In this document: piece by piece, positions 3,557-42,040 of the stretch
Layout: every line of letters starts with the position of its first letter
How positions within the stretch are numbered: position 1 is the first letter of the stretch
Source of the DNA: a virus
Virus record (IMG/VR): IMGVR_UViG_3300025132_000059
Span: 1-49,616 of that record
Direction: 5' to 3' (one strand)
DNA length: 49,616 nt
Translations under genes and position numbers: made by a program
The notes under the pieces: model-generated
What the model saw: the letters and a program-made list of their open reading frames with translations, nothing else
Database searches by the model: none
What the model was told of the DNA's origin: nothing

Positions 3557-4606
3557 TTACATGTTCACCTCCACCTGCTGGTCAAGATCTTTGCAGATAA
3601 GTCCTGCTGCTTTCGATGCGTCAGATAGTGCAAGGCGAAGAGCATCAGGTCTCTGTTGCAAGACCTCGATCCAGTGCTTCAAGTATGCAGCGTGATTCAA
3701 TTCATCAGAACAGATCTGTAACTTGTTGCAAATTAAGAATGCACCTAGTTCAGCCACCAGTTCCTCTCTGGCGTAGACCAATGTGTCTGGTCCCATGTCT
3801 CGATTGAGCCGTGACTCATGACCTGTGGAGTGGACCTGTTCATGTGCCCACGTTGAATACATTCCTTCCATAGTTTGGAATAGTTTCTTGGCAGGCATTG
3901 TGATGCGATCTTCTCTTGTCTGATAGAACGCTCGGTCACCTTGCCAGGTTGTTTCAACAGGCCATGCACCTAGAACCTTCTCTGCTGTGTTCAAGCGTTC
4001 GTAGATACTCTCAGGCTTGAAGGCATCCATCTCGATCTCGATCTGGTCCTGGAGCTCGGCATGTGATTCTTCGGTCGCGCCCTGTAGGTCTGCGACGTTG
4101 AAGATCTTTTGGTATCTGAACGCGGTGTAACCCACCTTGATGGGTTTGCCATTCTCATCCCGAAGTTCCTTGCCATCGTCTCCCTTCTTGTTGTACTCAA
4201 CACGGTATGGACGCATGATCGCGCAGCCCTTGGATCCCTTGCGGGGGAACCAGCCTTGCTGCTTAGCCTGGCCTACGCCGAGCCATAAGGGTGTGCTGAA
4301 GCAGCGGAGCGCTGTCCACATCTCAAGCACTGCAGGGTTGGCACCTCGGTAGGCGTGACCAGTCACCAGGTTGCGGTGTGATCCCTTGTTCTGGTAGGTC
4401 GTCCAGTCCCTACGCCATGGGTTGATGTTCTGTGCCATCAGGTTGATCATGTGCTGAGTCAGTTCCTCATCACCGCGAGCTAAAGCTTGTTGCTGCGTCT
4501 CGTTCGAGCTTCTTGAAGTACGCCTGGAGCTTTGGCGCGAGGACTTCGGTGTCGTAGACGCTGAGCTCTGGGTTTTCGCGTTGCATTTGCCGGATGAAGT
4601 CGTCAT
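3557..4606 (-). CDS. ArdC-like antirestriction protein with zincin metallopeptidase domain
   Basis: Two-part layout of ArdC proteins. An N-terminal ssDNA-binding domain (about 45-140) carries INPWRRDW, RNLVTGHAYRG and RKGSKG. The C-terminal zincin domain has HEQVH at residues 255-259 and a downstream EELVAELGA that would supply the third zinc ligand. The family blocks host restriction and protects incoming DNA, as known from plasmids. The 349-aa form starts at 4606, inside the upstream gene, and its first 35 residues are Ser/Thr/Arg-rich and may not be translated. The next in-frame ATG is at 4448-4450 (MINLMAQN) but would trim part of a conserved first helix, so the true start is open. Confidence 0.85.
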   Translation of the reverse strand: MTTSSGKCNAKTQSSASTTPKSSRQSSRRTSRSSNETQQQALARGDEELTQHMINLMAQNINPWRRDWTTYQNKGSHRNLVTGHAYRGANPAVLEMWTALRCFSTPLWLGVGQAKQQGWFPRKGSKGCAIMRPYRVEYNKKGDDGKELRDENGKPIKVGYTAFRYQKIFNVADLQGATEESHAELQDQIEIEMDAFKPESIYERLNTAEKVLGAWPVETTWQGDRAFYQTREDRITMPAKKLFQTMEGMYSTWAHEQVHSTGHESRLNRDMGPDTLVYAREELVAELGAFLICNKLQICSDELNHAAYLKHWIEVLQQRPDALRLALSDASKAAGLICKDLDQQVEVNM

Positions 4607-8188: not shown

Positions 8189-8461
8189 TCAGGCCTTCTG
8201 CCATGGGGCAGGCGGGAACACCAGATCGGCGATGGCCTGCATCGTGGCCTCGCTTTCCTCGGCCTCAGCCTCAGCCTCTCGGATCTGGCCCTTAAGGTCG
8301 CTGATCATCTCTTCCAACTGGCCTGACCGGGGCTGGATCGCCTCATCAAGGGCAGCCATCAGGCTGTGGAGTTGATCGTATGCCTCAAAAATGTCATCCG
8401 ATTCCCATACCGGGTGAAGGAAGCCGATCTCATCAAGTCGGTTCAGTGTGAAGCGTGCCAT
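8189..8461 (-). CDS. Acidic coiled-coil protein, 90 aa
   Basis: Starts MARFTLNRLDEIGFLHPVWE. Residues about 45-75 are a strongly acidic helix (DLKGQIREAEAEAEESEATM) that is very likely a coiled coil. The 5' leader ends in CCATCAGCACC directly before the ATG, the same string that precedes the 100-aa gene at 8793. Function unknown. Confidence 0.65.
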   Translation of the reverse strand: MARFTLNRLDEIGFLHPVWESDDIFEAYDQLHSLMAALDEAIQPRSGQLEEMISDLKGQIREAEAEAEESEATMQAIADLVFPPAPWQKA

Positions 8462-8490
8462 GGTGCTGATGGAGATAGAGGGTCAGGGGT

Positions 8491-8793
8491 TCAGGCGATG
8501 GCCTGTTCTTGCTTTGCTTTCTTGACGAGAGCCATGATCTGGTCGACGTCCATGTTCCAGCCCTCCCGCTTGGCAAGAGCGCAGGTCTCTATGTAGTGCG
8601 GGTCCAGTCGTTCGGTCATGCTCCGGAGCTCCCGTGCGAGAACCATGTCGGACCCATAGGCCCATGCCACGGTCTCGTCCCTGTCGAGATCAACCTGAGC
8701 CAGGTGTTGAAGCCAGGAGAGCTCAGCCCCTGATAGGGTCAGGGTGACGGTCAGTCGGTTGCGCTTGGTCAGGGATGCAGAATCGATGTTCAT
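8491..8793 (-). CDS. Hypothetical protein, 100 aa, ribbon-helix-helix-like
   Basis: Start set at the ATG at 8791-8793 (MNIDSASLTKRNRLTVTLTL); the frame is open further upstream but with poor composition. The strand RLTVTLTLSGAE followed by helix LSWLQHLAQVD resembles a ribbon-helix-helix DNA-binding unit, and the C-terminal half is helical (MDVDQIMALVKKAKQEQ). Probably a small phage regulator by this similarity. Shares its leader string with the 90-aa gene downstream. Confidence 0.6.
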   Translation of the reverse strand: MNIDSASLTKRNRLTVTLTLSGAELSWLQHLAQVDLDRDETVAWAYGSDMVLARELRSMTERLDPHYIETCALAKREGWNMDVDQIMALVKKAKQEQAIA

Positions 8794-8824
8794 GGTGCTG
8801 ATGGGATGATGGGACAAGGGATGA

Positions 8825-9532
8825 TCACTGGCCTTTGAAGTGCTTTGCACCAGAGCCATGGGCCTCAACGAACACGTCAAGCTTGGCCCCGTCACACAGT
8901 GCACAGGTCTGGCACTGCGCTGAGGAATTCTCAACGGTGGCCGGGCATTGCTTACCGGAGAATGCAGCCTGTCCCTTAGGGACCACTGCAAATGTCTTCC
9001 AGCCATGGGCGGATGCTTCCAGATAATCCCGCATTCCGTCGCAGGATGCCTGTAGACTGCCTCGGCTCCACTGGGCGAAGGCCTCGCGCCACTGGTGTGT
9101 ATATCCGGTGTGACCTGCCGCAGCGCCGTTCACAGCATGGAAGATCACGGGATCGATGATCGCCGGATCGCCATAGGCTCCCCATCGGATCTTGCGGGTC
9201 TTCAGGTACTTCTCACCATCGGCGACCGTCAGATCCTCCTGATACCCGCCACCCTTGTAGGTACGCCAGACAGACAGCGGAGCTTGTCCCACGTTGACGT
9301 AACAGGATCGGGAGCCGTCAGCCTGTCTCCGGTGCGGGCAGTTGCCGCAGACTGATACATCAGCCCCGGATTTGATCGCGTCGACAGGGGAGACGTCCTC
9401 CCGCAGAATCCAGACCTGGCACATGTTCCCGGTCTTCCGGTTGCCAGATTCGAGAGTGAGAATCGCCACGAACGGTTGCCCGTCAATAGGGGAGACGCCG
9501 CGTTGAAGAATGAAGCCCTTAGGTCTTGCCAT
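8825..9532 (-). CDS. Conserved phage protein of unknown function with CGNCPHR motif, 235 aa
   Basis: Resembles a family widespread in phages and some plasmids, with the signatures ILTLESGNRKTGNMCQVWIL, DVSVCGNCPHR, SCYVNVGQAP, VWRTYKGGGY, GAYGDPAIIDP and HTGYTHQW in that order, and a Cys-rich C-terminus (CPATVENSSAQCQTCALCDG). The conserved Cys pairs suggest metal binding. The function of the family is not known to me. A stem-loop shared with two other genes sits 5 nt before its ATG. Confidence 0.85.
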   Translation of the reverse strand: MARPKGFILQRGVSPIDGQPFVAILTLESGNRKTGNMCQVWILREDVSPVDAIKSGADVSVCGNCPHRRQADGSRSCYVNVGQAPLSVWRTYKGGGYQEDLTVADGEKYLKTRKIRWGAYGDPAIIDPVIFHAVNGAAAGHTGYTHQWREAFAQWSRGSLQASCDGMRDYLEASAHGWKTFAVVPKGQAAFSGKQCPATVENSSAQCQTCALCDGAKLDVFVEAHGSGAKHFKGQ

Positions 9533-9537
9533 GGTGA

Positions 9538-9556
9538 TGATCCTGAGAAGTGATCA
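9538..9556 (-). promoter_or_regulatory. Start-codon-proximal stem-loop, copy 1
   Basis: On the plus strand TGATC, a 9-nt centre CTGAGAAGT, then GATCA. Read on the transcribed minus strand, it forms a 5-bp stem whose base ends exactly 5 nt before the ATG of the 235-aa gene. Copies 2 and 3 have TGAAC/GTTCA arms around a nearly identical centre, so the arms have changed together. Confidence 0.65.
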
Positions 9557-9843
9557 GAAGGCGAAGCGGTTTCCCGGTTTCGCTGTGCTCAAATTAAATC
9601 GGATTGGTCTGGGGGAGAAGGAACAGCAGCGCATTGTTATTAAATGCAACAATTGTTCCTGAAGTAAGGGATGCAGCCGTGGACACGGTGGCCCGTAGTT
9701 TTCCCCAGGGACTTACGCCGCCAATGGGACCCGGGAGTCTCACCAGTAGCCTGGCGATCCGCCGTCCTTGGTATTGAGAATTGCTCGCAATTAGGGGCAG
9801 AATAGGGGGAAAATGGCCTGATTTGACCGATTTTGGCGGTCCA

Positions 9844-9870
9844 GCGTACCTGCATTAAAGACAGGTACGC
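9844..9870. repeat. Perfect 9-bp inverted repeat
   Basis: GCGTACCTG at 9844-9852 and its exact complement CAGGTACGC at 9862-9870, separated by 9 nt. It stands just downstream of the stop of the 63-aa gene side and is followed by AAAA on the plus strand, not by a T-run on the transcribed strand. An operator or an mRNA hairpin is more likely than an intrinsic terminator. Confidence 0.6.
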
Positions 9871-9889
9871 AAAATCTGGACTTAATGGG

Positions 9890-10081
9890 TCAATCCGTGG
9901 CCTCAGTCAGCCAGATGGAGCACTCCCAAATCGGTCCACGGTCCCCACGGTGCCAGGTGTCGCAGTCTGAGACTGTAAAACCGGCGGCCATGGCGTAATC
10001 CCGGAGGTGGGAGACGAGTTCATCTAGGTCCGAGCGCCCAGCGGACGCCCGGATGTGAACTTTGCGGGGCTTTCGGGTCAC
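9890..10081 (-). CDS. Small basic protein, 63 aa
   Basis: Starts MTRKPRKVHIRASAGRSDLD, then a helix (ELVSHLRDYAMAAG) and a strand with FTVSDCDTWHRGD and IWECSIWLTEATD. Small alpha/beta protein with a basic N-terminus. Overlaps the stop of the 79-aa gene by 4 nt. No family recognised. Confidence 0.65.
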   Translation of the reverse strand: MTRKPRKVHIRASAGRSDLDELVSHLRDYAMAAGFTVSDCDTWHRGDRGPIWECSIWLTEATD

Positions 10082-10317
10082 TGGCCGTAGGATTTCAGCA
10101 TTTCCCGGTAGGTACGGGCAGAAATCTCCCGGCGTTCGGCGAAAAATGCATCCGCCCGGAGGGATTCAGGGACACAATTGTGGCCCAGATAGCCCTCATC
10201 CCACACCCAGTGGGTAGTTTCGCCGTCAACCACAGCCGTTCTCACATAGAGGCGCTGGGGATTGCCGTAGTAGTCATTCGGCGCACAGAGATGCGCCATA
10301 TGGGTCGAAATTTTCAT
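10078..10317 (-). CDS. Hypothetical protein, 79 aa
   Basis: Starts MKISTHMAHLCAPNDYYGN, beta-rich first half (RLYVRTAVVDGETTHWVWDE) and a helical C-terminus (REISARTYREMLKSYGQ). Second gene of the leftward operon. Its leader carries the shared stem-loop and a run of eight C on the sense strand, nearly identical to the leader of the 54-aa gene. Function unknown. Confidence 0.65.
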   Translation of the reverse strand: MKISTHMAHLCAPNDYYGNPQRLYVRTAVVDGETTHWVWDEGYLGHNCVPESLRADAFFAERREISARTYREMLKSYGQ

Positions 10318-10320
10318 GAT

Positions 10321-10353
10321 GGTGAACCTTAGAAGTGTTCAGAGAGGGGGGGG
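10321..10353. repeat. Leader direct repeat, copy A
   Basis: This 33-nt block differs at one position from 10536-10568. It comprises the stem-loop plus AGAGA and an eight-G run, so the whole 5' leader of the operon's first two genes looks duplicated. Partner copy: 10536-10568. Confidence 0.7.
10323..10341 (-). promoter_or_regulatory. Start-codon-proximal stem-loop, copy 2
   Basis: TGAAC, a 9-nt centre CTTAGAAGT, then GTTCA on the plus strand. In the minus-strand transcript the stem base ends 5 nt before the ATG of the 79-aa gene. The loop carries only a weak AAGG as a possible Shine-Dalgarno. Confidence 0.65.
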
Positions 10354-10361
10354 ATCCCCCC
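10348..10361. repeat. GC-only 14-bp palindrome
   Basis: Six G, AT, six C: a perfect palindrome right after leader copy A and 7 nt from the stop of the 54-aa gene. It could form a strong hairpin in the operon mRNA. No T-run follows, so a terminator function is doubtful. Confidence 0.5.
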
Positions 10362-10367
10362 TAGAGG

Positions 10368-10532
10368 TTAGCTGGCGTGGCCCAGGCGGATGCACAGGGC
10401 CTCGTAAACCCAGTATTCGCAGACATCGAAGACCACGTCAAGGGCCTTGGGGTTCTTCGTGACGTAGGTCTCGAGCGAGTCGAGTGAGTCACAAAGCGCA
10501 ATGGCGGCGCGGTGATCAGCGGATTTCGTCAT
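10368..10532 (-). CDS. Small helical protein, 54 aa, first gene of the leftward operon
   Basis: ATG at 10530-10532, TAA at 10368-10370. Helical, with MTKSADHRAAIALCDSLDSL at the start and a second helix (VVFDVCEYWVYEALCIRLG). It is the first gene left of the divergent control region, with the shared stem-loop and poly-C run in its leader. Function unknown; first place in an early-type operon suggests an immediate-early role. Confidence 0.65.
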   Translation of the reverse strand: MTKSADHRAAIALCDSLDSLETYVTKNPKALDVVFDVCEYWVYEALCIRLGHAS

Positions 10533-10535
10533 GTA

Positions 10536-10568
10536 GGTGAACTTTAGAAGTGTTCAGAGAGGGGGGGG
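10536..10568. repeat. Leader direct repeat, copy B
   Basis: Second copy of the leader block (see 10321-10353), one difference in 33 nt. It is followed by further G-rich sequence to about 10577, giving the sense strand of the first operon gene a C-rich 5' leader. Confidence 0.7.
10538..10556 (-). promoter_or_regulatory. Start-codon-proximal stem-loop, copy 3
   Basis: TGAAC, a 9-nt centre TTTAGAAGT, then GTTCA on the plus strand, again ending 5 nt before the ATG of the 54-aa gene. Same arms as copy 2, with one change in the centre. Confidence 0.65.
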
Positions 10569-10660
10569 AGGGGGAGGCCCTGCCCCGGTGACTCAACCCT
10601 AGCAAATCGTTTCGGGTTTCGCCAGTTGTGAAATGTCGGCGCTGTTCGTCCGACAAATCC

Positions 10661-10688
10661 AACTTAACCGATCTGCGGCACGTGTCAA
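10661..10688 (-). promoter_or_regulatory. Candidate sigma70-type promoter for the leftward operon
   Basis: On the minus strand TTGACA (10683-10688) is a perfect -35, followed after 16 nt by TAAGTT (10661-10666), a weak -10. It points into the 54-aa gene through a leader of about 120 nt carrying the C-rich block and stem-loop. Confidence 0.35.
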
Positions 10689-10894
10689 GTTCGCCGCAAA
10701 TACATATATAGATGGCGCGAAAATGTAAACGTTTGTAACTAAATATGACGACGCTTCATAAAGAAATGTCACATGAAGCTTCTTTTTTTCCTCTCACGTA
10801 AACTTTTGTGACAGGCCCGCCAGATGTCTCTCCGAATTATTTCCCCAATTTGCCCTAAATATAGGCGGTTTTGGGGGTTTTGGCTACGAAGGAG

Positions 10895-10921
10895 TTGACT
10901 CCACTTAAAATCGTTTATATC
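10895..10921 (+). promoter_or_regulatory. Candidate promoter for the rightward block
   Basis: TTGACT (10895-10900) and TATATC (10916-10921) spaced by 15 nt, 19 nt before the first rightward ATG. The -35 lies within a small inverted repeat GGAGT/ACTCC, and the -10 abuts the palindrome TATCGCGATA, which could be an operator. Both boxes are imperfect. Confidence 0.35.
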
Positions 10922-10940
10922 GCGATAAAAAGGGATAGTT

Positions 10941-12194
10941 ATGGCCGTATCCCCGGCAGATTTCGAGTTTTATTCACGTGTAACTGGTATTCCGATCCCT
11001 AATGATCCGGTAGCCAGGATGCGTATGGCGCCACAGGTTTATGCGATGCGGCGTAGTCCGATGAGCAAAGTTGCAGGTGCTTTAGGCACTGCTGCAAAAG
11101 CTGCATTAGCAGGCGGTGCTGCTGTTGGAGCCGGTCTGTTAGTTAAAGAATTAGCTGGCAGGATGGGCGAATCGGGTGAAACAAAAGAAACTGCTGAAAA
11201 AACACCGGAAATGGCTGTTTCGGCACCATCAGCGCGTGATGCAGCAGAAAGTTTCGTTGAATCAGTAACTCACGGGTTCAAACAGGATTCTGGCGAGGAA
11301 TTAGTTGGTCGGGCTGCTACTCCTGAGGAAGTTGCTGCATTTAGGCAACGTATTTCGCATCAAACCGAGGTTCCCCAGGCAGATCCAAATCTGGCGAACG
11401 AAAGTTTTGATGCACAACGGGCTTCGGTGAGTGAACCCGTCGAATCCTTGACAACGGGCAGGCCAGTACAGGCGGCCCCTGGTTTAGAAGATGCAGTTGC
11501 CCAAGCTGAAGAGTTTTTTGAAGGAGGCGGCAGAGGAATCAGCCCATTTCAGGCCGGTGGCGCTATGCCCGAGCTTGCGAGTCAGCGTCGTGTTGTAGAT
11601 GCAACTGTTGGAGATTTCCCGAAGAGCATCCAGGGTGACGTTGCGCGTTTTCTTAGTAACTTAGGTTCAGCTCCTTCTGAGAGTGCAGTTTCTGCGCCTG
11701 CTCAGTCTGAAGCTCAAGAATTCCGCCAACAATTAGGACGCATGAGCGAAAGAGATCAAGTCCAGTATCAGGGTGGCCTTGCTGGTGGCAAACCTCAAGG
11801 TATTCACGGCGCCCTTGAAAATACAGCTGATGCAATGGGAGATGCTCCCCTCGGTGGCATCGAGGCTTCTAAGTCAATGATGGGCGAGATGCTTCAACGC
11901 GGAAACGTTCTTCCGAATGCTGGTGAAATCATGAGCGGTATGGGTAGTGCTCCTGCTCCCACCCCAGTTGATCCTTTGACTGGTGATTATCGTGCTTTTG
12001 TCTCTGACAAAGGTGTCGAGATTGGTAATCTTCTGAAGCAATCACAGGAGAAGAAATCAGCCCCTGCAATGGATCCCCGTCGCCAAGAAATCACCGACAC
12101 AATTAGAAAGTATCGGGCAAATCTTCCTCGTGCTGAGCAGGATGCTTTGATCGATAAACTGTACGGAATGACCGATAAAGGTGATCGGTTTTGA
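10941..12194 (+). CDS. Putative internal virion/ejection protein, 417 aa
   Basis: First gene of the rightward block. An Ala/Gly-rich hydrophobic segment (residues about 43-67, AGALGTAAKAALAGGAAVGA) that could enter a membrane is followed by long, low-complexity Ala/Ser/Glu/Pro sequence and a short helical C-terminus. Glycine-zipper-like segments of this kind occur in phage proteins that are ejected with the DNA. It lies with five more Ala/Gly-rich genes upstream of terL. No enzyme motif is seen; the ejection role is inferred from composition and position. Confidence 0.7.
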   Translation: MAVSPADFEFYSRVTGIPIPNDPVARMRMAPQVYAMRRSPMSKVAGALGTAAKAALAGGAAVGAGLLVKELAGRMGESGETKETAEKTPEMAVSAPSARDAAESFVESVTHGFKQDSGEELVGRAATPEEVAAFRQRISHQTEVPQADPNLANESFDAQRASVSEPVESLTTGRPVQAAPGLEDAVAQAEEFFEGGGRGISPFQAGGAMPELASQRRVVDATVGDFPKSIQGDVARFLSNLGSAPSESAVSAPAQSEAQEFRQQLGRMSERDQVQYQGGLAGGKPQGIHGALENTADAMGDAPLGGIEASKSMMGEMLQRGNVLPNAGEIMSGMGSAPAPTPVDPLTGDYRAFVSDKGVEIGNLLKQSQEKKSAPAMDPRRQEITDTIRKYRANLPRAEQDALIDKLYGMTDKGDRF

Positions 12195-35372: not shown

Positions 35373-37745
35373 ATGGCACATTTTCATAATAATGCTCTTA
35401 TCGGCGCGTCGGGCGCTGGCGGTGCTGGAGAATTCAGGATTGAACGTAGCTTGCGGTTTGATCAAACTGCAACGGCCCATTTGAGTCGCACTCCGTCTGC
35501 TAATGGAAATAAAAAAAAGTGGACCTGGAGCGGATGGGTGAAAAGGTGTACGAATGGAAACAGGGATGGCCTGTTTGAGGCTGAGGCTAACGGAAATTAC
35601 ACGCTTTTACGGATAAGAGACGATAACGACAAAATTAGCCTTGACCAGTACGGAGGAGGCAATTTTTACGTCTTAACCGATGCTGTATTTCGCGATAATT
35701 CTTCTTGGTATCACATTGTTTGCGCTGTAGATACAACTCAATCCACTGACTCAAATAGGGTCAAAATTTATGTTAATGGTGTTCAACAAACGCTAACAGC
35801 AGGTACAAGTTGGCCCAGTCAAAATCAAGACACACGCTTTAACGACACTTCTTATGCAATGAGAATCAGTGGAGTTAATGGCGGTACGCAATTTGACGGC
35901 TATATGGCCGAGGTTCATATTGTCGACGGTCAAGCACTTACTCCGACTGACTTCGGTGAATTTGACTCCGACACTGGTGTTTGGAATCCGATTGAATACT
36001 CTGGATCACACGGGACCAACGGCGCCCACCTCGATTTTTCAGACAACAGCAGTACATCTGCTCTTGGTAACGATGCAGCTGGTAGCAATAATTTCACGGC
36101 TAATAATTTTTCTGTTGCATCAGGCGAAGGAAACGACAGCCTGCTCGACACGCCGATGAATTATGAGGCAGATACTGGCAACAATGGTGGCAACTATTGT
36201 GTTTGGAACCGTCTATCTAGTAATGGCGGAGTTACGATCAAAAATGGAAACTTAGACACTGTAAATACGGGCTCATCATATGACAATCCCCGTGCCACTT
36301 TTGGTATGTCGTCTGGTAAATGGTACTGGGAAGTTAAACTTACGTCCTTTGCGGGTGGCTTTCACGTTGGTTTAGCATTGCCAAATGCAGCAAATTCAAG
36401 TTATCTCGGAGCAACATCGGGCACTTGGGCTTATGGGGATTCCGGGCAAAAGTATGATCAAGGGAGTAGTTCGAGTTACGGAGCATCCTTTACTACTGTT
36501 GGCGACGTAATTAGCTGCGCTTTCGATGCTGATGCAGGGTCAGTTGTTTTTTACAAAAACGGAGTTTCTCAAGGGACAGCTTTCACTGGACTAACAAATG
36601 GTCCATACCTTCCTGCTTTGTACGCACGGGTGAACAGCACTGGAGGCAGTTGGAACTTTGGCCAACGTCCCTTCACTTATACTCCTCCCAGTAATCACAA
36701 AGCACTTTGCACGACTAATCTTACCGACCCAACGATTGCCGACGGTTCGACGGCGTTTGATGTAATTACGGCAACAGCTACTGCTGCGGATAGAACATTC
36801 ACAATGCCTGGCGGTTTTGGCCCTGATTTTGTATGGGCCAAACAGCGGAATGCAGATAATAATAATGCGCTGTTTGACGCCGTGCGGGGCGCTACCAAGC
36901 GCTTGGTTTCAAACTCAACGCAAGCTGAAGACACTCAAGCTAATCAGCTGAAAGCTTTTACTAGCACTGGTTTTACCTACGGTTCTGATATTCCTAACAA
37001 TAGTGGTGCAACAGGTGTTTATTGGTGCTGGGACGCTGGAACGTCAACGGTCAGCAACACTAACGGCAACATCACATCTAGTGTCCGCGCCAATACATCT
37101 GCTGGGTTCTCAATTGTTACTTGGTCAGGAAACAGTCAAAACGCGACTGTAGGCCACGGCTTAGGGGCTACGCCAGAAATGATTTGGCATAAAAGAAGGA
37201 ATGGCTCTGCTTCTTGGGTTGTTTACCACAAGGATGTAGGCAACAACAAGTTCCTGCAGTTAAACGCTATTGATGGTGAAAACCAGGGATCTTATTTTGA
37301 CAATAAGAGCCCTACATCAACCATTTTCAATGTTTCAGATTTTGATGAAATTAACAGGAGTGGTAGCAATTATGTAGCCTTCTGCTTTGCACCTGTCGCA
37401 GGCTATAGCGCGTTTGGTTCGTACAGCGGCAACAATAATGCTAATGGTCCGTTTATTTTTACCGGATTTAGACCTGCTTGGCTTCTAATTAAGCGAAAAA
37501 ATGGTAGCGCAAACTGGTACTTAGTTGATAATGCGAGAGACCCTGACAATGATGTCCATAAGTACCTCAAGCCTAATACGAATAGTGCAGAGATTGATAC
37601 AAACTCAGAAAGCACAAAAAATAATTTGGATTTTCTTTCCAATGGATTCAAATTGAGGGGCACGGAAATCAGCACAAATGCTTCACAGGACTACATCTAC
37701 GCCGCCTTCGCTGAGCATCCCTTCAAAACCGCCCGTGCGCGGTAA
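35373..37745 (+). CDS. Large fibre: LamG-like + SPRY-like + conserved C-terminal domain, module copy 1, 790 aa
   Basis: LamG/concanavalin-like domain (about 25-205: RSLRFDQTATAHLSRTPSAN, WTWSGWVKRC, YHIVCAVDTTQSTDSNRVKI), a SPRY-like domain (about 315-445: ATFGMSSGKWYWEVKLTSF, SCAFDADAGSVVFYKNGVSQ), and a C-terminal domain (about 460-790) ending AAFAEHPFKTARAR. LamG and SPRY bind glycans or proteins, so this is probably a host-recognition fibre. Paralogue of the 813-aa protein at 39599. Confidence 0.8.
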   Translation: MAHFHNNALIGASGAGGAGEFRIERSLRFDQTATAHLSRTPSANGNKKKWTWSGWVKRCTNGNRDGLFEAEANGNYTLLRIRDDNDKISLDQYGGGNFYVLTDAVFRDNSSWYHIVCAVDTTQSTDSNRVKIYVNGVQQTLTAGTSWPSQNQDTRFNDTSYAMRISGVNGGTQFDGYMAEVHIVDGQALTPTDFGEFDSDTGVWNPIEYSGSHGTNGAHLDFSDNSSTSALGNDAAGSNNFTANNFSVASGEGNDSLLDTPMNYEADTGNNGGNYCVWNRLSSNGGVTIKNGNLDTVNTGSSYDNPRATFGMSSGKWYWEVKLTSFAGGFHVGLALPNAANSSYLGATSGTWAYGDSGQKYDQGSSSSYGASFTTVGDVISCAFDADAGSVVFYKNGVSQGTAFTGLTNGPYLPALYARVNSTGGSWNFGQRPFTYTPPSNHKALCTTNLTDPTIADGSTAFDVITATATAADRTFTMPGGFGPDFVWAKQRNADNNNALFDAVRGATKRLVSNSTQAEDTQANQLKAFTSTGFTYGSDIPNNSGATGVYWCWDAGTSTVSNTNGNITSSVRANTSAGFSIVTWSGNSQNATVGHGLGATPEMIWHKRRNGSASWVVYHKDVGNNKFLQLNAIDGENQGSYFDNKSPTSTIFNVSDFDEINRSGSNYVAFCFAPVAGYSAFGSYSGNNNANGPFIFTGFRPAWLLIKRKNGSANWYLVDNARDPDNDVHKYLKPNTNSAEIDTNSESTKNNLDFLSNGFKLRGTEISTNASQDYIYAAFAEHPFKTARAR

Positions 37746-38849: not shown

Positions 38850-39599
38850 GTGCCATACATTGGTCGGCAAATTGCTCGTGGTCAGAACCGTAAAATCGAT
38901 GATGTGTCGAGTAGCTTTAACGGCGGTACGGCCACGTTTAACCTACGTGCTTCAGGTGATCCGGTTTATCCAGCAACCACTAACCAATTATTCGTTTCTG
39001 TTGGTGGTGTGATGCAGGACCCAGGTACGGACTTTACCGTAGCTGGTGATCAGGTAACCTTTACGACAGCTCCAGCAGCTGGATTAAGCTTTTTCGCCTT
39101 AATGCAAGGCGATGCTGTGGATATAAACACACCGGGTGACGGGACGGTCACAAGCTCGAAAATTGGTAATGACCAGGTAACGACTGCGAAAATCGGCGAT
39201 GACCAGGTCACCGGAGCTAAATTAGCCGATAATATTACGATCTCTTCAACCAGCACAATAACTGGTAGCGTTGTTTCAGATACATCAGGCAATCTCCGCG
39301 ACATTCCACAAAACGCAAAGACCAGTGCGTATGTCTTAGTAATTGGAGATGCAGGCAAACACATCAGTATCACTACTGGTGGTGTTACTGTCAATTCAGG
39401 CATCTTCTCAGCAGGGGATGCCGTAAGTATTTATAACAACAGTTCAAGCGCACAGACGATTACGCAAGGTAGTTCAGTCACTATTCGACTCGCTGGCGTT
39501 GGAACAGCAGGAAATAAAACACTTGCCGCATATGGGTTAGTGACCTTACTATGCATTGCAAGTAACGAATTCGTAATCGCTGGTACTGGAGTTACCTAA
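38850..39599 (+). CDS. Tail fibre protein, module copy 2 first gene, 249 aa
   Basis: GTG start (MPYIGRQIARGQNRKIDDVS). The N-terminal domain parallels the 271-aa protein at 34553: SSFNGGTATFNL, FVSVGGVMQDPG, FTTAPAAGLSFFALMQG. Residues about 85-110 hold short repeats (SSKIGNDQVTTAKIGDDQVT) followed by a beta shaft. Overlaps the next gene's ATG by 1 nt. Forms, with the next gene, the second copy of the module. Confidence 0.75.
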   Translation: MPYIGRQIARGQNRKIDDVSSSFNGGTATFNLRASGDPVYPATTNQLFVSVGGVMQDPGTDFTVAGDQVTFTTAPAAGLSFFALMQGDAVDINTPGDGTVTSSKIGNDQVTTAKIGDDQVTGAKLADNITISSTSTITGSVVSDTSGNLRDIPQNAKTSAYVLVIGDAGKHISITTGGVTVNSGIFSAGDAVSIYNNSSSAQTITQGSSVTIRLAGVGTAGNKTLAAYGLVTLLCIASNEFVIAGTGVT

Positions 39600-42040
39600 T
39601 GGGAATGCATCAAATGCTAGGACCGATCGGAGGCGGTGCTAGCGATTACGTGATTGAGCGCAGCTTGCGATTCAATCCAGCAGACAGTGCTAATCTCACA
39701 AGAACTTTTTCTAGTGGAAACAGGAGAACATTTACTTTATCCTACTGGATTAAAGAGTGCGGCAAAGGTTTGTCACCCTCTAACAATCCCCATATCCTGT
39801 GGTCAGGGCCTGATGTAAATACGAGGGGCGGGATTGTCCATAGAGGTACAGGGTCAGACGCAAATGAACTGTATATCTTTAACCAAGCAGGTGGTACAAC
39901 AAATTGCCAAGTTTGGACTAATTCTCTGCACCGAGACTTTGGCGCCTGGAAGCATATTATTTGGGCAATAGATACCACCCAGTCAACTGCGACATATAGG
40001 GTGAGGGTCTACATTAATGGAGTAGAGGAAACGCTGAATTTTGCGACCACGCCTGCCCAAAATCTTGAGTTACAAATTAACGTAAATCAAGAGCATCGAA
40101 TTGGTAGAGGAACTCCCGATGATTATGGTAACTATTACTTAGCTGAGACGCATTTCATCGATGGTCAACAACTTACACCGACCAGTTTTGGTGAGTACGA
40201 TGACGATAATAACTGGATACCAAAAAGATTTACTGGAACATACGGTACAAATGGGTTCTTTTTAAACTTTGAAGACGCAACAAATACTACGACAATCGCA
40301 GAAGACAGTAGTGGAAATAGTAATGACTTTACGGCAAACAATTTTAGCGTTACTGCGGGAAAAACCAATGACAGCCTGCTTGATTCACCATCGAACGGAT
40401 CGCAGTCAGACACTGGTGCGGGTGGAGAAGTAAGCGGAAATTGGGCCGTTTGGAATCCGGTTTCTAGTCGTGGATTTGATAATACAAGCTCTTTGAAGAA
40501 TGGAAACCTAGATGTGCAAAATACAACTACCACATATGACAACCTTGTGGCGACCTTTGGGATGCCATCTAATACTGGTTCTTATTACTGGGAATTTGAA
40601 GTTACAGATAACAGCGGTAATTTTCACATTGGAGTTGCTAAAACAAGCGCCAACTTAGATGGCAGTGTTTTTGTAGGCGGTGTTGCTGGCACTTGGGGTT
40701 TTGGCAATAGTGGTTATAGATGGTCGGAGGGCACATTTGCTACCGGAGGTGCTGGCTTTGCGACAAACGGAATGATTGTCAGCATTGTTTTTAACTCAAA
40801 TACCGGCGTTATGAGTCTTTATCGAAACGGAACTCTTGACGTAAGTATCACAGGAATTACAGATGATGCAATTTACATGCCCGCTGTCTACACACGAAGT
40901 AGCGGAGGGGCAAGTTTTAATTTTGGGCAACGTCCTTTCCAGCAAAGCGGTGCTGTTCCTTCTGGCGCAAAATTACTTTGCTCAGCACTTCTTTCGGCCC
41001 CTACAATTGCCGAGGGTTCACAATACTTCGACGCAAAGTTGTGGACTGGAAATAGTTCGAACAATAGAACGATTAGCGGCTACAATTTCTCTCCAGACCT
41101 TGTTTATATCAAGCGTCGTAGTGCAAACTACGGCGGCATAATGATGGACACTGTGCGTGGATTAAACAACGGGCACGCTGGCACGCTTTACACAAACTCG
41201 ACTGCCGCTGAAGACACAGGTTCAACAAGCTCGATCTTATCTTTCAACTCCGACGGGTTTAATCTTGGAACGGATGGAGGTATTAATTACAGCGGATCCA
41301 CCTACGTTGGCTGGAGTTGGGATGCCGGATCATCAACGTCTACCAACTATGACGGCAGCATCAACTCTCAAGTCAGAGTAAATCAATCTTCTGGTTTTTC
41401 TATTACTGCCTATACCGGAAATGGATCTAGCAGTGGTTCAACGGTAGGCCATGGACTTGGAGCAGTTCCAGACCTTTTAATTATTAAGTCAAGGGGAACA
41501 AGCTACAGCTGGATTGTTTGGCACAATTCTTTTACGGCAAAACAACTTCTTTATCTGAACCATAATTACGCAATTCAGAACAACAAGGATGATCATTTCA
41601 ACAATACTTTGCCGACAAACCAAGTCTTTAGCTTGAGAGAATCGCCAGCAGTTAACTCAAATGGCACCAATTTTATTTGCTATGCCTTCAGCATGATTCC
41701 AGGCTATAGCGCGACCGGTACATACACTGGTAACGGCAACAACAACCGAGGTCCCTTTATATATCTTGGTTTCCGTCCTGCATTTTTGATGGTTAAGAGC
41801 TATACTCATGCTGAAAATTGGGTTATTTATGACTCCATACGCGGTCCTATCAACCCAATTAACAACGTTTTAAGGCCGAACACAGACAATCAAGAAACTT
41901 CTACCGATGAGAGAAAGATTGATTTCTTGTCGAATGGATTTAACATAAGAGGCACTGATGGGAATGTGAACGCATCCAGTAAATCTTACTTCTATGTGGC
42001 CTTTGCCGAACATCCCTTTAAAACCGCCCGTGCACGTTAA
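39599..42040 (+). CDS. Large fibre: LamG-like + SPRY-like + conserved C-terminal domain, module copy 2, 813 aa
   Basis: Same layout as the 790-aa fibre: RSLRFNPADSANLTRTFSSG, HIIWAIDTTQSTATYRVRVY, then ATFGMPSNTGSYYWEFEV, SIVFNSNTGVMSLYRNGTLD, and AFAEHPFKTARAR at the end. The two proteins are clearly paralogous but much diverged, with most divergence in the loops of the recognition domains. Probably a second receptor-binding fibre. Confidence 0.8.
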   Translation: MGMHQMLGPIGGGASDYVIERSLRFNPADSANLTRTFSSGNRRTFTLSYWIKECGKGLSPSNNPHILWSGPDVNTRGGIVHRGTGSDANELYIFNQAGGTTNCQVWTNSLHRDFGAWKHIIWAIDTTQSTATYRVRVYINGVEETLNFATTPAQNLELQINVNQEHRIGRGTPDDYGNYYLAETHFIDGQQLTPTSFGEYDDDNNWIPKRFTGTYGTNGFFLNFEDATNTTTIAEDSSGNSNDFTANNFSVTAGKTNDSLLDSPSNGSQSDTGAGGEVSGNWAVWNPVSSRGFDNTSSLKNGNLDVQNTTTTYDNLVATFGMPSNTGSYYWEFEVTDNSGNFHIGVAKTSANLDGSVFVGGVAGTWGFGNSGYRWSEGTFATGGAGFATNGMIVSIVFNSNTGVMSLYRNGTLDVSITGITDDAIYMPAVYTRSSGGASFNFGQRPFQQSGAVPSGAKLLCSALLSAPTIAEGSQYFDAKLWTGNSSNNRTISGYNFSPDLVYIKRRSANYGGIMMDTVRGLNNGHAGTLYTNSTAAEDTGSTSSILSFNSDGFNLGTDGGINYSGSTYVGWSWDAGSSTSTNYDGSINSQVRVNQSSGFSITAYTGNGSSSGSTVGHGLGAVPDLLIIKSRGTSYSWIVWHNSFTAKQLLYLNHNYAIQNNKDDHFNNTLPTNQVFSLRESPAVNSNGTNFICYAFSMIPGYSATGTYTGNGNNNRGPFIYLGFRPAFLMVKSYTHAENWVIYDSIRGPINPINNVLRPNTDNQETSTDERKIDFLSNGFNIRGTDGNVNASSKSYFYVAFAEHPFKTARAR

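Follow-up and report, generated by a model that had tools for sequence, protein, structure and literature searches.

Why should three nearly identical stem-loops stand at one short distance before three start codons of the same phage? The question is raised by a viral record of 49,616 nucleotides (IMGVR_UViG_3300025132_000059), which was analysed at its full length and is called the window below. Its plus strand carries genes for a terminase, a major head protein and other virion proteins. The terminase is 65% identical to that of Synechococcus phage S-EIVl, and from this kinship we infer a cyanobacterial host. On the minus strand, positions 3557-4606 encode an ArdC N-terminal domain joined to a zincin-like metallopeptidase domain, which is likely a phage anti-restriction protein.

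A first-pass annotation of the window had described the three stem-loops and had placed each exactly 5 nt before a minus-strand ATG. All three, each 19 nt long, are indeed found there on the minus strand, and the spacing is exact in every case (Table 1). Covarying arms had also been claimed. Copies A and B have long flanks in common, including a C-rich one, and probably arose by duplication; the window by itself therefore offers a single compensatory change (A-T versus T-A). The weight of the case for a hairpin comes from relatives, not from the window. Further copies elsewhere in the 49.6-kb record, which the annotation had proposed to look for, did not turn up: neither the exact pattern nor one with up to 2 mismatches gave any, and the reversed control pattern gave none either. 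A loose search with 3 mismatches found 4 against 1.72 expected, which is not significant. Rfam 15 (E <= 1) had no match in window positions 8800-11000.

Table 1. Stem-loop copies in the window and the features around them
Feature	Positions	Strand	Observations
Copy A, TGAAC-ACTTCTAAA-GTTCA	10538..10556	-	5 nt before ATG at 10532; 19.6 bits under model R1
Copy B, TGAAC-ACTTCTAAG-GTTCA	10323..10341	-	5 nt before ATG at 10317; 16.5 bits
Copy C, TGATC-ACTTCTCAG-GATCA	9538..9556	-	5 nt before ATG at 9532; 17.7 bits
54-codon ORF opened by the ATG behind copy A, function unknown	10368..10532	-	92% identical homologue in L120, likewise behind a copy
79-codon ORF opened by the ATG behind copy B, function unknown	10078..10317	-	homologues in L065, L093, L104 and L196 behind a copy
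235-codon ORF opened by the ATG behind copy C, phrog_2554 (function unknown)	8825..9532	-	homologues behind a copy too
63-codon ORF between copies B and C	9890-10081	-	conserved GDxGP motif in homologues
Promoter-like TTGACA-16-TAAGTT upstream of leader A	10661..10688	-	read directly; failed consensus scan
GC-rich hairpin upstream in leader A, GGGGCAGGGCCTCCCC region	10563..10586 (limits approximate)	-	folding z = -1.02
GC-rich hairpin upstream in leader B, GGGGGGATCCCCCC	10345..10362 (limits approximate)	-	folding z = -1.54
Hairpin upstream in leader C, GCGAA-AC-CGG-GAAA-CCG-C-TTCGC	9561..9583	-	folding z = -1.49

Upstream of copy C there is also a non-coding inverted repeat, ATTGTT-GCATTTAAT-AACAAT, with a 9-nt spacer (9633-9653, minus strand) and no evident gene behind it.

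Stem covariation and loop conservation in relatives

Hairpins with a similar 9-nt loop on other stems are found in more distant relatives, in leaders of the same genes and of further ones. Examples are AAACC-ACTTCGCTA-GGTTT in contig L120, CCGAC-ACCTAGCAA-GTCGG in L135, GCGGC-GCTTCGCCA-GCCGC in L122 and TCGC-TCTTAGAAC-GCGATG in L139; in the GCGATG class the last stem base is the A of the AUG. A first scan, which asked for a stem, yielded 58 distinct matches ahead of start codons; 40 permuted loop patterns yielded 10-52, with a median of about 20. Most candidates were later chosen by loop and start codon with no stem required, and the alignment of 62 copies, A4, consists of this set plus a few copies first found by their stem.

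The 62 copies define an element with a closing C-G pair, a 9-nt loop NCYTMGMAA and a 4-bp stem (consensus CNCYTMGMNNG). When copies selected by loop and start are considered, pairs 2, 3 and 4 far exceed 2000 shuffles and pairs 5 and beyond do not; hence the stem is the closing pair and three more. The 5-bp arms of the first-pass annotation do pair in the window copies, but only 4 bp are conserved across relatives. All four Watson-Crick types are seen at the three stem pairs. In the loop-aligned set of 62, pair 2 is CG in 44 copies, GC in 11, AU in 3 and UA in 3; pair 3 is UA in 20, AU in 10, CG in 7, GC in 5 and UG in 1; pair 4 is AU in 12, CG in 12, UA in 7, GC in 5 and UG in 2. Under a shuffle control that ignores relatedness (it is not tree-aware), paired cells in A4 amount to 82.3% against 58.0%, double-change cells to 65 against 20.1±3.9, and the covariation score to 0.520 against 0.114±0.024; slid partners reach at most 0.157. 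Compensatory changes therefore go beyond both the shuffled and the slid controls, which is the covariation of a structured RNA.

Because shuffling ignores relatedness, homologous leaders were compared directly. Window copy B and its counterpart in L120 (upstream identity 0.85) differ by two fully compensated pairs, A-T to C-G and G-C to A-T. One compensated pair separates L124 from L135 (G-C to A-T, upstream flank identity 0.93), and another L362 from L224 (T-A to A-T, upstream identity 0.87). Between window copy C and the near relative L093 (0.97) the stem is the same and the loop is altered to CCTTCTAAA. If the window were all that we had, the long flanks common to copies A and B might suggest that three similar sequences arose by chance or recent duplication. 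The relatives refute this by their covariation, by model matches at starts and by compensation in homologous leaders, and its probability is negligible.

The arms themselves carry little information (0.1-0.8 bits per column), and they vary even within one contig: G002 has TCGC/GCGA, CTCC/GGAG and ATCC/GGAG. The invariant columns are the closing C7-G17 and loop positions C9 and T11, with G13 in 58 of 62 copies; C7, C9, T11 and G17 were fixed by the search pattern, so that their invariance is partly by construction. Pair 3 is open in 19 of the 62 copies and pair 4 in 24. In copies whose 3' part resembles GGAG these two pairs are often broken, which means that not every copy requires the full stem.

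These properties bear on what kind of site this is. A DNA operator read by a dimeric repressor would be a dyad, and the window taken alone does have dyad-symmetric arms. Such arms should be conserved among the sites of one genome; those found here vary freely, even in one genome, and what is conserved is an asymmetric centre that always faces the gene. Moreover, many copies lie within operons with no obvious promoter. A DNA operator is thus very improbable. Arms that vary and a loop that is conserved across relatives bear out the RNA hairpin already favoured in the first-pass annotation and are at odds with a plain DNA operator.

Position before start codons and the genes served

A covariance model was run on 16 contigs of relatives, with E-values that are rough for so short a model. 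From this search 57 copies were checked, on 15 of the 16 relatives, some 16 of them outside the training set. Two listed matches were left out: one in G020, which is cut by the contig end, and a weak one on the plus strand of G013. Every one of the 57 directly precedes a start codon that opens an ORF of 40 codons or more, compared with 15% of random positions, and the distance to the start codon is normally 2-10 nt. The first-pass annotation had looked to relatives for further covarying copies, and there are many, at a near-constant distance from the start and with strong covariation of the arms.

Genomes carry several copies in their early regions. The numbers per contig are lower bounds, because the model search missed three known copies near the end of G013, where with a loose first look it listed one weak match; the contigs are also fragments. 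There are at least 8 copies in G002, 7 in G003, 6 in G019 and 5 in each of G001, G004, G006 and G016. Within G002 and within G003, the copies all share a strand and lie in the non-structural region.

Unrelated genes are preceded by the same type of leader. Homologues of the 235-codon ORF stand behind a copy in L122, L135, L139, L214, L115, L124, L196 and L243-L247. In L065 (731-749, minus strand) the copy-C leader precedes a GTG-started gene of the GP88 family instead of the 235-aa gene, meaning that the leader was kept and the gene behind it exchanged. Copies are found inside operons and also behind promoter-like sequences, and a string closely resembling the one upstream of leader A is present in L115 and L122.

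Just upstream of the element there is usually a GC-rich hairpin (mean folding z -1.08, with 33 of 62 below -1). Its sequence is variable and it is not 17 bp long, as in GGGGGCTTCGGCCCCC, CCGAGCCGAGAGGTTCGG and GGGCCCGGCAACGGGCCC, or GGGGGGATCCCCCC and GCGAAACCGGGAAACCGCTTCGC in the window. As a part of the element it is frequent, but less certain.

Two further suggestions can be made for such a two-hairpin leader. If a ribonuclease cut or protected it, each early cistron would receive a defined, protected 5' end. The adjoining GC-rich hairpin at many intergenic positions would suit a role in RNA processing or stability, as would the occurrence of copies both behind promoter-like sequences and within operons. 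Yet a hairpin could protect without a conserved loop, and cleavage would not demand the short, near-constant distance to the AUG that is observed; we regard this as decidedly improbable. The leader might instead be a put- or nut-type site for transcription antitermination, where an RNA of two hairpins near early promoters modifies RNA polymerase, and in several phages it does lie near early promoter-like sequences. The distance, however, is fixed relative to the start codon and not to the promoter, and copies recur before individual genes within operons, which makes antitermination very unlikely.

A putative translational operator

The hairpin is predicted to have low stability (means of -1.5 kcal/mol in the stem and -2.8 for the MFE), so regulation would need a binder. 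Since the loop is conserved on a stem of almost any sequence, recognition of the RNA would be through the loop. We can picture a trans-acting factor, most likely a phage RNA-binding protein, that reads the loop of the weak hairpin. Once bound, the factor would stabilise the hairpin over the ribosome-binding site, within the footprint of the ribosome, and hairpins stabilised in this way would set the translation of the early genes together.

We lean slightly towards reading the element as a multi-gene translational operator: a small structured RNA that lies where translation of the early genes of S-EIV-like cyanophages is initiated. We infer this function; it fits the position and the anatomy of the element. 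The more specific suggestion, that the conserved loop on its free-to-vary stem is the site of a cyanophage RNA-binding regulator which controls translation of an early-gene regulon, is one that we make tentatively, as quite possible but rather doubtful still.

The main rival is a purely cis-acting role in initiation. If the element has no dedicated regulator, it might present a Shine-Dalgarno-like or ribosome-contact sequence and raise or tune the initiation of early genes. It occupies the place of a ribosome-binding site, its hairpin is weak, and a Shine-Dalgarno-like 4-mer is found in the 3' half of 35 of the 62 copies, so ordinary ribosome binding may account for some of the conservation. 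Nevertheless, the best conserved bases, C7, C9 and T11, are not Shine-Dalgarno bases, and copies that lack the 4-mer retain the loop, window copy A and the GCGATG class among them. Stems of at least 4 bp occur in 18 of 27 copies without it, against 15 of 35 with it. A simple Shine-Dalgarno reading is insufficient, because the bases with the highest conservation are outside the Shine-Dalgarno-like sequence, and a cis-acting role in general seems to us unlikely.

Returning to an operator with a binder, one candidate was examined, the 63-aa protein encoded between copies B and C. Its homologues occur in several element-bearing phages, and AlphaFold predicts a confident beta-alpha-beta-beta fold (pLDDT 88.7). 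The predicted fold had no significant match among PDB or viral folds (E <= 0.001) and the protein no match in Pfam. It may be regarded as a weak lead, and no regulator was identified.

Known systems and distribution of the element

To our knowledge, no mechanism has been established for phage start-associated sequences since 2011. They are the closest known kind of element, in the form of the start-associated sequence (SAS) and its extended form (ESAS) of Cluster K mycobacteriophages; the cyanophage element is of the same kind, though not of the same family. Both are short, conserved, asymmetric sequences with symmetric outer ends, lie a few nucleotides before starts of non-structural genes and recur several times per genome (here all 57 checked matches are so placed, with up to 8 per contig), and about half of the Cluster K copies have an inverted repeat upstream. 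The Cluster K sequence, GGGATAGGAGCCC, belongs to phages of other hosts, and CNCYTMGMNNG does not match it within 2 deviations. SAS contains AGGAG, whereas the cyanophage element is conserved at C-Y-U-M-G in the loop, and the upstream repeats of ESAS are imperfect and 17 bp long; the hairpin that usually stands upstream of the cyanophage element is the variable one described above. For the ESAS repeats, RNA pairing found little support and DNA-binding sites were preferred (PMC3203893), whereas the cyanophage stem covaries. Later work placed putative promoters in ESAS, and the role of SAS and ESAS was still ill-defined in 2024 (PMC11373665). Sequences of the SAS type are also present in Microbacterium phages of Cluster EF (PMC7302621).

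Two systems of T4-like phages can be compared as well. The gp43 operator of T4 and RB69 is an mRNA hairpin recognised chiefly by bases in its loop (PMC3014915). It resembles the cyanophage element as a hairpin operator with a conserved loop, but it is one site for one autoregulated gene with its hairpin some 40 nt upstream, whereas the cyanophage element serves many genes and adjoins the start codon. In T4, RegA is a single factor that controls about 30 mRNAs at the AUG (PMC3014915); its sites are A+U-rich and unstructured, in contrast to the structured cyanophage elements. No title or abstract retrieved in literature searches on S-EIV1 and on cyanophage start-codon stem-loops mentions the element.

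Strong hairpin covariation is thus seen in an initiation region, although RNA structure had been doubted for start-associated inverted repeats, and through the cyanophage family the mechanism of start-associated sequences becomes testable. The element points to an unrecognised switch for the timing of early-gene translation, and it could supply cyanobacterial genetics with a natural, portable part for translational control.

How widely is the element distributed? The S-EIVl isolate has no copy and no comparable family of leader hairpins, so the element is confined to part of the S-EIV-like group. The exact motif is restricted to the two nearest relatives (L065; L088/L093/L177); other exact matches in viral contigs, beyond L065 and L088, resemble coincidences in coding regions. 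Matches of the 14-mer CCACCTAGCAAGGA in bacterial genomes are scattered over unrelated phyla, which fits chance. Other phage groups with the 235-aa protein (L004-L012, L014-L043 and most of L248-L281) lack the element, which thus follows the S-EIV-like group and not the gene. A variant is found in L610 (G015), at about 411-653 and at 1110-1132 on the minus strand: GCC-CACCTCGCAAC-GGC, in at least 3 copies before ATGs, has C-C in place of the closing C-G, inside a 3-bp stem.

The S-EIV-like cyanophage group is environmentally frequent. Its members in IMG/VR, gathered in searches that used the terminase and one virion structural protein, run to hundreds, with at least 599 in the terminase scan, and an S-EIV-type structural protein is present on 15 of the 16 contigs searched with the covariance model, the sixteenth (G018) being short. 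Two large virion proteins of the window (35373-37745 and 39599-42040, plus strand) both match phrog_19943, phrog_24898 and phrog_27411 and are apparently paralogues. The window's 751-aa virion structural protein has a homologue in L224 (G022; 8454-10700) that contains one in-frame TAA.
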